A stretch of DNA of 47,939 nucleotides from Phormidium sp. FACHB-1136. Lineage in GTDB: Bacteria; Cyanobacteriota; Cyanobacteriia; Phormidesmidales; Phormidesmidaceae. Location: positions 1 through 47,939 of the forward strand of contig NZ_JACJRS010000043.1 in assembly GCF_014697375.1 (NCBI RefSeq), in the 5' to 3' direction. Each line of letters opens with the position of its first letter. The first letter of the stretch is position 1. The position numbers were made by a program, and so were the translations under genes. Shown in pieces: positions 35,813 through 40,111 of this stretch. The notes beneath the pieces were generated by a model. That model made no database searches. It was given only the letters and a program-made list of their open reading frames with translations, and was not told where the DNA came from.

Positions 35813-38800
35813 TTACTCCGGCTTTTGCTCCGGCATCATGCACTTGTCGGAGTCGCAACCAGCGGGGCCAGCTTCGATCAGATCTCCGGCATCGTACATC
35901 GCCAAGGCCGAGTGAAAGTCTGCCGTGCCACGACGGGCTTCGACCTTCTGACTTTCGGCCTCGTAGGTGGCCTTGTCAATCGGCTCGAAGGGCAAACGGG
36001 GGAAGGTTTGCAGGTCGTCGAACCGAGCCAGCAGCGCCGCCGAAATGTAGCCCTCGTCGTTTTGGATAGCCTGGTAGATCCGCTCGCCCAGGGCTTCCAG
36101 TTCCGGCTCTCGGAACTCGATGGTGGCCGAGGTGTTGTGGGTGGTGTAGTGCTTCTGCACCTGCATGTAGAAGTCGAACTGGGCCGCCGCCGTGAATTTT
36201 TCGATGGCGATTTCGTCCGCACCGGGCAGGTTGGCCCAGGGCACTTCTACCGGAATTTCCACCAGCCACTCGGTACAGCGCGGGTCGAAGGGATCGTTCA
36301 GCAGGTTGCCGTTCTCATCCTTGTCGGACTGGGAGGGCACCACGGAATAGCCGTAGTCAATGCAGGCCATGGCTACAGGGTCATTCTTGCGGAAGGTGAT
36401 CCGCCGCAAAAAGCGCTGGGCCTTGGGCGGGTGCCAGCCAGGGGAGGCCCCCGTCAGCAGCGATTTCGTCCCCGCAGGCTGCACGGTGGTACAACGGTTG
36501 GGCCGCTTCAGCCCGTGGCGGTCGCAGTAGTCCCACACCACCCAATGGACGATGTCCTTCCAGCGGGTCAGGTAGTCCTGCTCCTTTTGCTTGAACTCTA
36601 GCCCCTGCATGGTGTCGGGCCGTCCTGCCTCCCACCAGCGCAGCCAGTCTACGCCGAAAGCCTGTACAAAGAAGTCGAACAGCCCGGTGAAGGACACGCC
36701 CACGATGGGGTCTTCCAAACGCGACTTTTGGTAACGCGGCTCGTTGAATTGGTGATTCAACAGCACCGCCACCGACAGCGCCGCCGAGGTAAAGGCATCC
36801 TCTTGATCCTGAAGATTGCCAGGATCAAGCTGGTTGAGATGGACTTCGGACAAATTGCACTGCCCCGTGAGGGTGCCACCAAACACGCCCTTGTGGAATT
36901 CTGACTCGTTGAAGCAGAAGCTATCGTGCTGTCCGGGCAGGGGCTCCACGGAACGAATCACCTGCCACTTACCCTTGGCCTTGGGGGCATGGCCTTTGGA
37001 GGTATCCACCCGCTGGCAGGGAATGGCAGCACAATCAGTAATTTGCAGATACCACAGATCCTTTTGCCGTACTCCCAGGTTGGTTTTGCTGCCAGCCTTG
37101 GCCGCGAGGTTAATGGAGGAACGGATGCCACACTTCAGCAGCAGCAGGTACAGGCGATAGGCCCGATCATAGTCGGAAACGTAGAGCCGCACGCCACCGG
37201 AGGAAGTTTCCGAGCCATCGGCATCAATCAACCCAGCGACGAAGTGCAGAATGCCCTCGCGATTCCAGCCCGCCAGCACATCTAGAGCTTGGGCTTCAGC
37301 CTTGAGGGCGCGTACCTGTTCAGGGTCAAAGTTGTCCTGGAAGCCCGTGTAGAGCAAGCAAGGGGTTTCGGGATTTTCGGCGTAGTAGCGCAGCTTGCCA
37401 GAGGTGCGTCCAGCCAGGGCTAGGCTTTGGTAGCTCTTGGCTCCATAGAGGCGCAACTGAAGCTGGGGCTTACCGTTAGACTGGCACAGGGAACCATCCC
37501 CCACCAGTTGTCCCAGGGTGTAGGCCCAGGTGGGATCGACAAATTCGCCGTCGCGGTAGTCAATCTGGAACGGCTCCGTGTGTAGGGCATAGGGATGGCT
37601 GTCGAGGCGATCACTCAGTTCCTCGGTGGTCAGTTCGGTGTAGGTGCTGCTAAAGCGATCTCCCACAAAGAAGCGGTGCTTGCCCGTCACATCCAGCCAA
37701 GTACCATCGCCAAAGGTAACGCGATACATCTGGCGATTTTGCCCCGTTTGCACAGGTACTACCGGGCTCCAGCGACGACCGTTCCACACCTCCACCGTCT
37801 GCCCCACGAGGGACTGAATCGGGTGGAGTCCGTCACGGGTGATCATCAGGGTAGAACCCGCTACACAGTGGAAATTGGATCCTAAAATTTCTCCACAATT
37901 GTGAGCCACTAGGCCGTTAGCATCGAACCGGGCGGGGCCAGGAACCGTACAGTCGTAGACCGCTTCTACACCATCGGGCACAACGCTGGACACCGTAGCC
38001 GTAAACCGTTCTCGGTTGGGGCGGCGCTTGTATTGCCCCAAAACCTCAGCCAACTTTGCGGCCTTAGCAGGTTCTTGGAAACCGATTAGCTCGGCAAAAA
38101 CCTGAAGGTTATCGTTGGCGATCACCAATTCATGCTGGGTTTGGCAGAAATAGGGGGCAGGTTCCCGATTGGCATCGGGCAGTTCACGATAGCCCTCTGA
38201 GCGCCGCTCTTGGTAAATCGTCGCCACAATCCCCAAACGACCTAGCATCCGCTGTACCGCTTGCAAGTTCGCTAGGTTGCTTTGGGCCAGCCGCACGCTA
38301 ATCCCCTTAGCCTGACTGCCCTGGACGCTGCCATCGGCATCAAACAACCCTTGCAAAAAGCCCTGATAGAATTCGTAGCTGCCCTGTTCAATGGCGGCGG
38401 TGATCACCTTATGGCCAGGAGTGATGCCAAATTCTGCCGCGAGACTGGCCAATCCGGCTGAGTTCACCACCCGATGCTTGAGCTGGCGATGGTAATGGGC
38501 CGCTGCGGTGCGACGTTCGTAACCTACGGCAGTTTGCAAGAGGGCAATGGCGTGTTCACTCATTTCCTCCTGGGATTCGCCCCAGAAGCGCAGCAGAGCC
38601 GAATCGTTCCACTGGGTTTTGGTTAAGCTGCCATCGCCTACCAGGTTCCCGATTAACCAGCCCGCTTCCTGGGTGCCCTTTCCATCCCAGGGTTGTAGCC
38701 CCCGGTGGTTGTGCAGCAGGATACGATCTCCGGGTTGTAGAGTTTCGGCCTCCACCCATTCGGTGTATTGAGCCTTTTGGGTTTGCGCCGTCACTTTCAG

Positions 38801-40111
38801 AACTTTGTGGTTCCCGGTCAAACGCAGGCTGTGCCCCTCGGTAGTGCTGAGTTTGAGGACAGGCTTGGTGCCGGAATAAAAGAAACCCTCAGCGGTGGTG
38901 CTGAACAGTTCCCCGTTGACGTAGGTACTGTGCTGCTGACCGATCAGATCCTTGACCTGACGGGGGCCATCACCCGTAGGCACCCAGGTATCTACCGTCA
39001 CACAGGGGTTCAGGCCGTAGCGGTCATCCGCCCCTGCCCGACGTTTGGCCTCCCCAGCCCACTGAATTGCGCCCTCGCCAGAATAAAACTGTTTCCGCAC
39101 CGAGTCTACACAGTCCTGAAGGCTGGGCTTTTCGTGGAAGACGCGGGTGTGGTTGGCCATCCGCAACACGTCCCGTTCGGGGTCGATGCGCCAGTTGCCC
39201 TCGGCGTCTTGCTGCCAGAGATTGTCCTTGGCACCCGCCGCTAGTTCGTCGTTGCTGTCGAATTGGCGCATTCCGGCACTGCGTCTGATGTTCCCAGCCA
39301 CCACACAGGCCGCAGCTTCGTCGATGAGCAGACAGCACTCGACGGAATTGAGTTGGCGACCGAGGGCTTTGTTGAGGATATTGGCGCAGCGGTCGTAGAG
39401 CAGCGATAGGCGGATGGGGTTGGCGACGCCGCCGAAGCCCTTGAGTTTTTCCCCGGCGGGGCGCACGTCGCTGAGGTCGATGGTGACTTCGACGGTATCG
39501 GTGAAGCGCTCATCGGTGGAGAGTTCCAGCAGGGTTTGGTAGGACTGCACCCAGCCCTGGCGGCTGTCGCCTACTCGGATGTTGACCTGGTTGCCGTCGA
39601 TGGAAATTTCGGTGATTTCGCGACGGTCGGCGGCGGGGGTGGTGCCAATGTCGCCGCCCATGGTGACGTTGAGGCGGTTACGGATGGCGGGAATTTGGTT
39701 GATGTATTTGGGTTCCAGAATTGCCCCGGTGCCGCAGCCCATCATGGCCAAGTCCATCATGAGGCCAAAGGCGCGCCAGTCTACGACGTTGGTGCTGGTG
39801 CAGTTGTAGGCTCCCGAAAAATTCTCAGGCTGTTTGCTCCAGGCAGTGCCGCCCACCCATAGCCAACGACCGGAGGGCAGGGCTTTTACCTGGCGCTGCA
39901 TTCGGCTCAGGAGGGCCATCTCTTCATCGGTGAGGTTGCCCAGTTCCTTCAGCCCCTCCAGGGTGCGATCACAGACTTGATCCCAGGTTTCCCGTTGTCC
40001 CGGCACTACCTCGCCTCGACGGCTATAGGTGCGGTAAAACACCGGAAACGCGGCAGGAGCGGCGTCGGGAAACGGCCCTTGCTGCCGAGTACGGGGGACT
40101 TCTTGAACCAT
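35813..40111 (-). CDS. nrdJ: Class II ribonucleotide reductase (NrdJ) with two inteins
   Basis: Adenosylcobalamin-dependent ribonucleotide reductase precursor, 1432 residues. Removing two inteins (370-738 and 749-1084) leaves about 727 residues, normal for the cyanobacterial enzyme. Extein landmarks are AYNCTSTNVVDW near 101-112, AACVVAGNIRRSAG, the active-site loop NP-CGEILGSNFH-CNLSEVHLNQ rebuilt from three pieces, AGTKSLLTGASPGWHPP and the C-terminal redox pair CDSDKC. By comparison with Thermotoga NrdJ, N368, C739 and E741 form the catalytic N-x-C-x-E, so no active site exists until intein 1 is spliced out. No stop interrupts the frame. Its job is dNTP supply with vitamin B12. The 5' region contains interleaved inverted repeats. 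Confidence 0.96.
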   Translation of the reverse strand: MVQEVPRTRQQGPFPDAAPAAFPVFYRTYSRRGEVVPGQRETWDQVCDRTLEGLKELGNLTDEEMALLSRMQRQVKALPSGRWLWVGGTAWSKQPENFSGAYNCTSTNVVDWRAFGLMMDLAMMGCGTGAILEPKYINQIPAIRNRLNVTMGGDIGTTPAADRREITEISIDGNQVNIRVGDSRQGWVQSYQTLLELSTDERFTDTVEVTIDLSDVRPAGEKLKGFGGVANPIRLSLLYDRCANILNKALGRQLNSVECCLLIDEAAACVVAGNIRRSAGMRQFDSNDELAAGAKDNLWQQDAEGNWRIDPERDVLRMANHTRVFHEKPSLQDCVDSVRKQFYSGEGAIQWAGEAKRRAGADDRYGLNPCVTVDTWVPTGDGPRQVKDLIGQQHSTYVNGELFSTTAEGFFYSGTKPVLKLSTTEGHSLRLTGNHKVLKVTAQTQKAQYTEWVEAETLQPGDRILLHNHRGLQPWDGKGTQEAGWLIGNLVGDGSLTKTQWNDSALLRFWGESQEEMSEHAIALLQTAVGYERRTAAAHYHRQLKHRVVNSAGLASLAAEFGITPGHKVITAAIEQGSYEFYQGFLQGLFDADGSVQGSQAKGISVRLAQSNLANLQAVQRMLGRLGIVATIYQERRSEGYRELPDANREPAPYFCQTQHELVIANDNLQVFAELIGFQEPAKAAKLAEVLGQYKRRPNRERFTATVSSVVPDGVEAVYDCTVPGPARFDANGLVAHNCGEILGSNFHCVAGSTLMITRDGLHPIQSLVGQTVEVWNGRRWSPVVPVQTGQNRQMYRVTFGDGTWLDVTGKHRFFVGDRFSSTYTELTTEELSDRLDSHPYALHTEPFQIDYRDGEFVDPTWAYTLGQLVGDGSLCQSNGKPQLQLRLYGAKSYQSLALAGRTSGKLRYYAENPETPCLLYTGFQDNFDPEQVRALKAEAQALDVLAGWNREGILHFVAGLIDADGSETSSGGVRLYVSDYDRAYRLYLLLLKCGIRSSINLAAKAGSKTNLGVRQKDLWYLQITDCAAIPCQRVDTSKGHAPKAKGKWQVIRSVEPLPGQHDSFCFNESEFHKGVFGGTLTGQCNLSEVHLNQLDPGNLQDQEDAFTSAALSVAVLLNHQFNEPRYQKSRLEDPIVGVSFTGLFDFFVQAFGVDWLRWWEAGRPDTMQGLEFKQKEQDYLTRWKDIVHWVVWDYCDRHGLKRPNRCTTVQPAGTKSLLTGASPGWHPPKAQRFLRRITFRKNDPVAMACIDYGYSVVPSQSDKDENGNLLNDPFDPRCTEWLVEIPVEVPWANLPGADEIAIEKFTAAAQFDFYMQVQKHYTTHNTSATIEFREPELEALGERIYQAIQNDEGYISAALLARFDDLQTFPRLPFEPIDKATYEAESQKVEARRGTADFHSALAMYDAGDLIEAGPAGCDSDKCMMPEQKPE
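36860..37867 (-). other. Intein 2 of NrdJ (residues 749-1084)
   Basis: Self-splicing protein insert of 336 residues between extein residues FH and CNLSEVHLN. It starts with Cys (CVAGSTLMITRDG) and has block B TGKH and two LAGLIDADG motifs, TLGQLVGDGSL and VAGLIDADGSE, both with the catalytic acid, so the homing endonuclease may be active. The C-terminal block reads FGGTLTGQ before the +1 Cys: the last residues are Gly-Gln instead of the usual His-Asn. Boundaries were set by joining the flanking RNR sequence. Confidence 0.9.
37898..39004 (-). other. Intein 1 of NrdJ (residues 370-738)
   Basis: Self-splicing insert of 369 residues between GLNP and CGEILG. It starts with Cys (CVTVDTWVPTGDG), has block B TGNH, LAGLIDADG motifs LIGNLVGDGSL and LQGLFDADGSV, and ends with the canonical GLVAHN before the +1 Cys. 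That +1 Cys (739) is the predicted radical-bearing Cys of the reductase. Both catalytic endonuclease acids are present. Confidence 0.93.

Follow-up and report, generated by a model that had tools for sequence, protein, structure and literature searches.

Two endonuclease-bearing inteins ten residues apart in the active-site loop of a cyanobacterial B12-dependent ribonucleotide reductase

The DNA analysed here (the window) is a 47,939-nt stretch from Phormidium sp. FACHB-1136 (contig NZ_JACJRS010000043.1 of assembly GCF_014697375.1). Its minus strand carries a gene for an adenosylcobalamin-dependent ribonucleoside-triphosphate reductase (RTPR) that is interrupted by two inteins. The ORF scored 735.3 bits with the RTPR model TIGR02505 (cut-off, 340.05) and was also matched by Pfam and NCBIfam intein and LAGLIDADG models. 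Its parts are listed below, with residues numbered on the precursor and a slash marking the junction between an intein and its extein.

35813..40111, minus strand: whole precursor ORF (1432 aa), a class II ribonucleotide reductase of the RTPR type interrupted by both inteins (from the ORF and profile matches)
39005..40111, minus strand: N-extein, aa 1-369, ending ...YGLNP (from alignment to relatives)
37898..39004, minus strand: intein 1, 369 aa, aa 370-738, at site LNP/C, from Cys1 to His-Asn, with a LAGLIDADG endonuclease
37868..37897, minus strand: middle extein, CGEILGSNFH, aa 739-748, ten residues
37895-37897, minus strand: first Cys of the middle extein, aligned with radical C408 of 1L1L
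36860..37867, minus strand: intein 2, 336 aa, aa 749-1084, at site NFH/C, from Cys1 to Gly-Gln, with a LAGLIDADG endonuclease
36857-36859, minus strand: first Cys of the C-extein (aa 1085), aligned with C419 of 1L1L
35813..36859, minus strand: C-extein and stop codon, including the C-terminal CDSDKC

Once both inteins are removed, the remaining 727 aa can be aligned over their full length with intein-less relatives (88.6% identity over 727 aa with L006). The empty sites are exact, and the intein-less relatives align straight through both junctions. Relatives with one or both inteins have identical junctions, LNP/C and NFH/C, or variants such as DFH/C. A first-pass annotation had placed the inteins at residues 370-738 and 749-1084 with just CGEILGSNFH between them; alignment with intein-less NrdJ genes bore out these borders exactly, and nothing at either junction spoke against them. 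The two sites are 30 bp, or ten residues, apart. The profile scores, the 24 further aligning intein 2 sequences (a 25-row alignment) and the predicted fold of intein 2 exclude chance as the source of the arrangement, and at the level of sequence the two-intein RTPR is confirmed as real. The window gene and most genes of the same genus lack a ~40-residue segment just upstream of RYGLNP (at extein residues 362/363) that is present in many other cyanobacterial RTPRs.

Each intein immediately precedes one active-site cysteine. Once spliced, N368, C739 and E741 form the motif N-x-C-x-E. Natural intein-less relatives match residues 406-410 and 419 of the L. leichmannii RTPR (1L1L), that is, N-x-C-x-E and a second loop Cys. 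Aligned through them, the +1 Cys of intein 1 falls at C408, the thiyl radical Cys, and that of intein 2, residue 1085, at C419, a redox partner Cys. The first of these had been predicted as the radical Cys and does align there; the second, as the +1 residue of intein 2, had been missed. Both cysteines are present in 102/102 loops, a count that is no measure of conservation since the search pattern itself demanded them. In the precursor, the Cys1 of each intein occupies the place of the active-site Cys that it precedes, and the predicted polypeptide is shown to have no continuous active site. Because both inteins stand directly before needed cysteines, excision of both would be required before the enzyme works, and we infer, as had been proposed earlier, that the precursor is enzymatically inactive.

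Both inteins have features of class 1. For intein 1 these are C1, block B LTGNH and the end ...AHN/C; for intein 2 they are C1, block B VTGKH (T..H) and the +1 Cys. The end of intein 2 is TGQ, with neither a penultimate His nor a C-terminal Asn. The borders and endonuclease of intein 2 had been recognized from the start, but its Gly-Gln end had been overlooked. Among cellular copies at this site, 17/24 end in TGQ and 7/24 in Gly-Asn, and two phage relatives end in TYQ and TFQ. Each intein contains two LAGLIDADG motifs (GDG and DADG) with their acidic residues, at positions 124 and 224 of intein 1 and 124 and 217 of intein 2 (intein numbering), the presumed catalytic ones. Motif inspection confirmed the claim that both residues are kept in both inteins, and with these intact neither endonuclease appears dead by homology.

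The structure predicted for intein 2 from the 25-row alignment A3 had a pLDDT of 87.1 and a pTM of 0.89, with pLDDT below 50 at the last three residues, the Gln end among them. In VIA-align, the model matched the TliVMA intein (Z 22.7, rmsd 3.5, 296 residues) and PI-PfuI (Z 22.1, rmsd 3.6, 304 residues); it also matched the Ssp DnaB splicing domain (Z 15.4, rmsd 2.0, 122 residues). So modelled, intein 2 has a Hint fold with a nested endonuclease. The intein 1 model was poor (mean pLDDT 66.9); PF14890 and TIGR01443 match this intein by sequence. Passages of a review describe natural Gln-ended inteins that splice, as well as inteins without a penultimate His (PMC4031507). Examples given there are the PolII inteins of Pyrococcus abyssi and Methanoculleus marisnigri, which have a Gln end and splice slowly, and the ribonucleotide reductase (RNR) intein of Chilo iridescent virus, in which Gln supports better splicing than Asn (PMC4031507). 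The latter, set beside intein 2 by its description, shares the C-terminal Gln. Since such natural splicing inteins have been described, intein 2 was classed as a probable Gln variant of class 1.

The genome assembly consists of 260 contigs (completeness 99.99%, contamination 3.02%) and gave zero matches to PF02867, PF00268 and PF13597, which were positive in 11/14, 7/14 and 6/14 control genomes, respectively. PF02867 misses the window's own RTPR and could miss another diverged class II enzyme, so this null speaks against ordinary class I and class III enzymes, not against every conceivable RNR. TIGR02505 matched two pieces across the genome, both from this RTPR gene. The RTPR is the sole recognized ribonucleotide reductase of the genome. 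As no class I or class III profile matched, splicing is probably essential to the cell.

We surveyed 388 genomes of the class, 25 of them being other genomes of the window's genus. The intein 2 profile matched 46/388 genomes at E ≤0.001 and gave full-length matches at E <1e-120 in 24. Named carriers of intein 2, found by two short patterns that miss more distant copies, are Nodosilinea sp. BSH.14, Leptolyngbya sp. DLM2.Bin27 and DLM2.Bin15, Limnothrix sp. CACIAM 69d, cyanobacterium MS008 and Gloeomargaritales VI4D9. The intein 1 profile matched 123 genomes, many of them weakly through other inteins. A gene matching the RTPR extein hosts intein 1 in 59/388 genomes (58 if G089, where the gene encodes a different RNR, is left out). 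In nine further genomes (G045, G065, G104, G112, G115, G145, G220, G252 and G264), it occupies the matching NP/C of a reductase with no match to the RTPR extein. Both inteins occur together in 13/388 genomes. In the window's genus, the gene is uninterrupted in 16/25 other genomes. Across the survey, the RTPR family has four intein sites, after extein residues 277, 369, 379 and 509.

Relatives of the inteins were also found in phages. Two IMG/VR contigs, L096 and L103, which differ at one base in 11,116, encode an RTPR with both inteins, 24 residues apart, and a third (L093) has an intein 2 relative without intein 1. These phage inteins are homologues at homologous loop positions, with 50% (intein 1) and 46-48% (intein 2) identity; the phage genes differ in their exteins (~23-29% identical), in the 24-residue middle extein of L096 and in the TYQ and TFQ ends. 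Contigs L097-L102 have an intein 1 relative (32-47% identical) and, over the available stretch, nothing related to intein 2 at the corresponding site, the L099 contig being cut off. Matches on L094, L095 and L104 were partial or weak. The L097 RNR ORF has a further intein-like start at aa ~91, away from both loop sites. Among 50,697 named phage records, 304 match intein 2, all with <60% identity (<28% among the 30 matches listed), and 25 match intein 1, with ≤27% identity; all closer phage relatives came from IMG/VR and none from these named records. The first-pass annotation had called the pair an extreme case of targeting conserved active-site DNA. Comparison with relatives upheld the conserved target and not the rarity, as the pair also occurs in other genomes of the survey and in one phage RTPR gene. 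That interpretation as a whole stood in its borders, radical Cys, acidic residues and active-site placement, and was incomplete or is softened here elsewhere.

The same loop receives other insertions. A second intein of 362-365 aa lies exactly at the intein 1 site in four genomes (G154, G216, G255 and G267; loci L165, L166, L167 and L168), starts with CHAGDTLV or CHSGDTLV and is distantly similar to intein 1 (66-78 bits). Intron-like inserts of 748 nt (G014), 479 nt (G041), 246 nt (G129) and 247 nt (G235) lie 6 nt or two codons past the intein 1 site, where they separate the Gly codon of NPCGE from its Glu codon; the loci are L038 (in G014), L048, L176 and L180. Two of these four genomes have intein 2 and none has intein 1. 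The inserts have a U before them and a G at their end, as at group I-like splice points, and Rfam returned no group I or II intron match for them at gathering or at E ≤5. The group I label follows from these splice-point bases and from a group I intron described, in the part of the source available, in an RNR gene of Nostoc punctiforme (PMC12702839). The L038 insert contains an apparent broken ORF. In G014 (L038), which is closely related to the window, and in G048 (L051/L052), two ORFs encode the RTPR, the break falling in the variable loop immediately upstream of RYGLNP; the G048 halves are ~84 kb apart. In five more genomes of family f16 the C-half begins likewise; at L157, L158, L162, L172 and L175, C-halves alone were found. 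With an ATG of its own in the C-half, the arrangement resembles a genes-in-pieces enzyme and not a split intein.

The arrangement in the window is very probably the product of two independent mobile inteins that homed separately into the active-site loop of a B12-dependent RNR, 30 bp apart, each able to splice itself out. Each intein would consist of a self-splicing Hint domain with a nested LAGLIDADG homing endonuclease. Translation would yield one 1432-aa precursor. Going by what is known of the family, both inteins would leave it through class 1 (Cys-type) splicing of the usual kind: after attack by the +1 Cys, the final residue of the intein, which is Asn in intein 1 and Gln in intein 2, would cyclise, and the exteins would be joined. 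Joining would restore N-P-C-G-E and F-H-C-N, and hence both loop cysteines. Each endonuclease would be expected to cut alleles without its own intein, which would then be copied in by recombination; low dN/dS, a patchy distribution and the retained acidic residues suggest such homing. Among the points against this explanation are that intein 2 is without the canonical His-Asn end and that the endonuclease parts may persist for folding or splicing.

Selection was compared between the parts of each intein by dN/dS (NG86), with borders between endonuclease and splicing parts set by us. Between the window and its nearest relative, G021, values were 0.072 (endonuclease part) and 0.038 (splicing part) for intein 1, and 0.099 and 0.030 for intein 2. 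Endonuclease values across all comparisons that gave one were 0.024-0.335 for intein 1, where dS was saturated in one or both parts in 3/11 comparisons, and 0.055-0.176 for intein 2. The acidic pair of intein 2 is intact in 24/24 cellular and 2/2 phage copies. For intein 1, at least one acidic residue is lost in 9/55 complete RTPR-hosted copies, four in genomes with both inteins (G050, G059, G338 and G374) and five with intein 1 alone (G090, G094, G138, G192 and G349); the difference in loss between intein 1 and intein 2 has a P value of 0.051. Further intein 1 copies are frameshifted or cut off (G077, G143 and G376). Selection on the endonuclease parts suggests, short of proof, that they cut.

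It is unlikely that the inteins are now immobile and that the endonuclease parts are kept solely since splicing needs them structurally. A polB intein whose endonuclease domain is needed for splicing appears in part of one source (PMC10643990), and the absence of any decayed copy among 24 of intein 2 is what structural need would predict. However, intein 1 copies with shrunken or dead endonucleases retain splicing motifs at lengths of 273, 290, 309, 313 and 316 aa (G059, G090, G349, G050 and G338, respectively), and so the endonuclease part seems dispensable for intein 1. Furthermore, intein 2 DNA is 83-84% identical across families where exteins are 71-75% identical (the window against G050 and G059), an excess that points to horizontal movement, and parsimony on the best tree, weak branches included, gives 32 presence changes for intein 1 and 17 for intein 2.

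We regard as quite improbable a second alternative to separate homing, in which the pair is a composite mobile unit whose inteins home together, one endonuclease being able to carry both across 30 bp. Raw co-occurrence is high (intein 1 in 59, intein 2 in 24 and both in 13 genomes; Fisher odds ratio 8.2, P value 4e-6) in a test made without phylogeny and with all 388 genomes counted as possible hosts. On the extein tree, however, the inteins show no association: among 13 independent pairs with contrasting intein 2 states, intein 1 differed the same way in 3.0, the opposite way in 2.9 and was unchanged in 7.1 (averages), the rows having been picked largely for carrying inteins, which biases against association. 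Acidic residues of intein 1 are lost in 4/13 genomes with both inteins, where intein 1 could move only with help, but this is not significantly commoner than in those with intein 1 alone (5/42; P value 0.19). Neighbouring MCM inteins, moreover, co-homed very inefficiently in experiments, by the excerpted account (PMC10643990).

The nearest relatives of the inteins point the same way. Intein 1 (splicing part) is nearest to a copy in a genome without intein 2 for 6 of the 13 genomes with both inteins (G002, G059, G068, G151, G347 and G374), with ties for G324 and G338, and intein 2 is nearest to a copy in a genome without intein 1 for 7 of the 13 (G067, G068, G095, G151, G324, G347 and G374), although for G067 and G095 that genome is G048, which may have lost intein 1. 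DNA identity between the window and G002 is 82% in exteins, 75% in intein 1 and 88% in intein 2. G059 has an intein 2 that is 83% identical to the window's, with exteins at 71-73%. It shares intein 1 with its sister G088, which is without intein 2 (N-part 90%, C-part 80%; exteins 92-94%), and the endonuclease parts of these two copies are 58% identical, the G059 part being decayed. A shared history of both inteins against the exteins was thus not found as a general rule, since the histories differ in several of these 13 genomes. G050 does fit: relative to the window's lineage its intein 1 splicing part is 89-91% identical and its intein 2 91%, with exteins at 75-76%, so both inteins are nearer to that lineage than its exteins are, a pattern compatible with joint transfer.

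Most likely, then, the pair was built by separate, mostly stepwise arrivals and not as one composite element, and in several lineages intein 2 most likely reached alleles already holding intein 1. In the window and G021, both inteins look to have been inherited together, and either may have come first there.

Two candidate signals of intein movement were set aside, the first of them for G059. In the intein 1 tree, G059, G050 and G338 stand beside the window and G021, as joint transfer might produce, but all three have decayed endonuclease parts; the grouping of G059 is a probable long-branch effect, as DNA segments put its intein 1 nearest to that of its sister G088, and joint transfer may still hold for G050. 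The AT-rich middle extein common to the window, G021 and G013 (29 or 30/30 bases) looked foreign, as a co-conversion tract might, but intein-less G012 differs at just 4/30 bases and intein-less G004 is equally AT-rich.

That the intein pair is instead a regulated post-translational lock on DNA-precursor synthesis, of benefit to the host, is very doubtful: both +1 residues align with active-site cysteines, no other RNR was recognized in the genome, and the C-terminal Gln of most intein 2 copies can go with slow splicing (PMC4031507), but most genomes of the genus have an uninterrupted gene, presence is patchy, and the Chilo iridescent virus intein prefers Gln to Asn. Hardly more credible is a two-step form, suggested by both +1 nucleophiles being redox-active enzyme residues, in which intein 1 would withhold the thiyl-radical Cys and intein 2 the redox partner Cys, and a redox- or metal-responsive order or rate of splicing would set dNTP supply.

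Liu and colleagues reportedly described, in 2003, multiple inteins in an RNR gene of Trichodesmium, which, judging by the paper's title alone, is likewise a case of several inteins in one cyanobacterial RNR gene. A phage nrdA gene with two putative inteins is on record (PMC3653736, in part); likened by description, it too has more than one intein per RNR gene, but it is a class I gene of a phage. Inteins have also been reported, in the sections available, in an Aquifex R2 gene, where one separates metal-ligand residues (PMC8772380), and in Thermosynechococcus nrdJ, as type II inteins (PMC9403480). Because RNR genes with multiple inteins are already on record, this kind of element is known. A literature search, with most subscription papers outside it and sources partly covered, yielded no recognized description of endonuclease-bearing inteins ten residues apart, each before an active-site Cys. 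By their sequences, the elements are ordinary in kind and unusual in placement.

The closest parallel in behaviour, as far as the excerpts go, comes from the neighbouring MCM-a and MCM-d inteins of Haloferax, which also have endonucleases and lie near each other in a functional core region, and whose double state is thought to arise stepwise (PMC10643990). With working endonucleases, they enter single-occupied alleles and hardly enter empty ones (PMC10643990). They belong to another gene and another domain of life, and activity was measured there but is deduced here. The RTPR pattern is in line with this stepwise model of interference between neighbouring inteins. If both endonucleases cut, the window would hold two live homing elements separated by 30 bp, which would put mutual homing hindrance to a demanding natural test. 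The RTPR loop may also serve as a compact model for several parasites sharing one indispensable target, because in relatives it also hosts the second intein and the intron-like insert, and intein relatives occur in phage genes.

Further intein motifs were observed in the same genome (L210-L213; G000:C37:2998-5394, G000:C34:10392 and G000:C213:11398), in DnaB (two), DnaE and ThyX, all of them DNA-synthesis genes. The DnaE motif is the N-terminal half of an intein, of the type known from split DnaE; ThyX also gave weak nuclease-family matches. A distant intein 2 relative ending in TGQ occurs at GVNL/C or GGNL/C in L188, L189 and L190; the host gene may be a class I large subunit, with the site before a possible N-L-C-x-E radical Cys. 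In G042, a contig that gave a weak RTPR-like match also carries a cobalamin riboswitch (RF00174, 60.4 bits; L055:3643-3787, plus strand).
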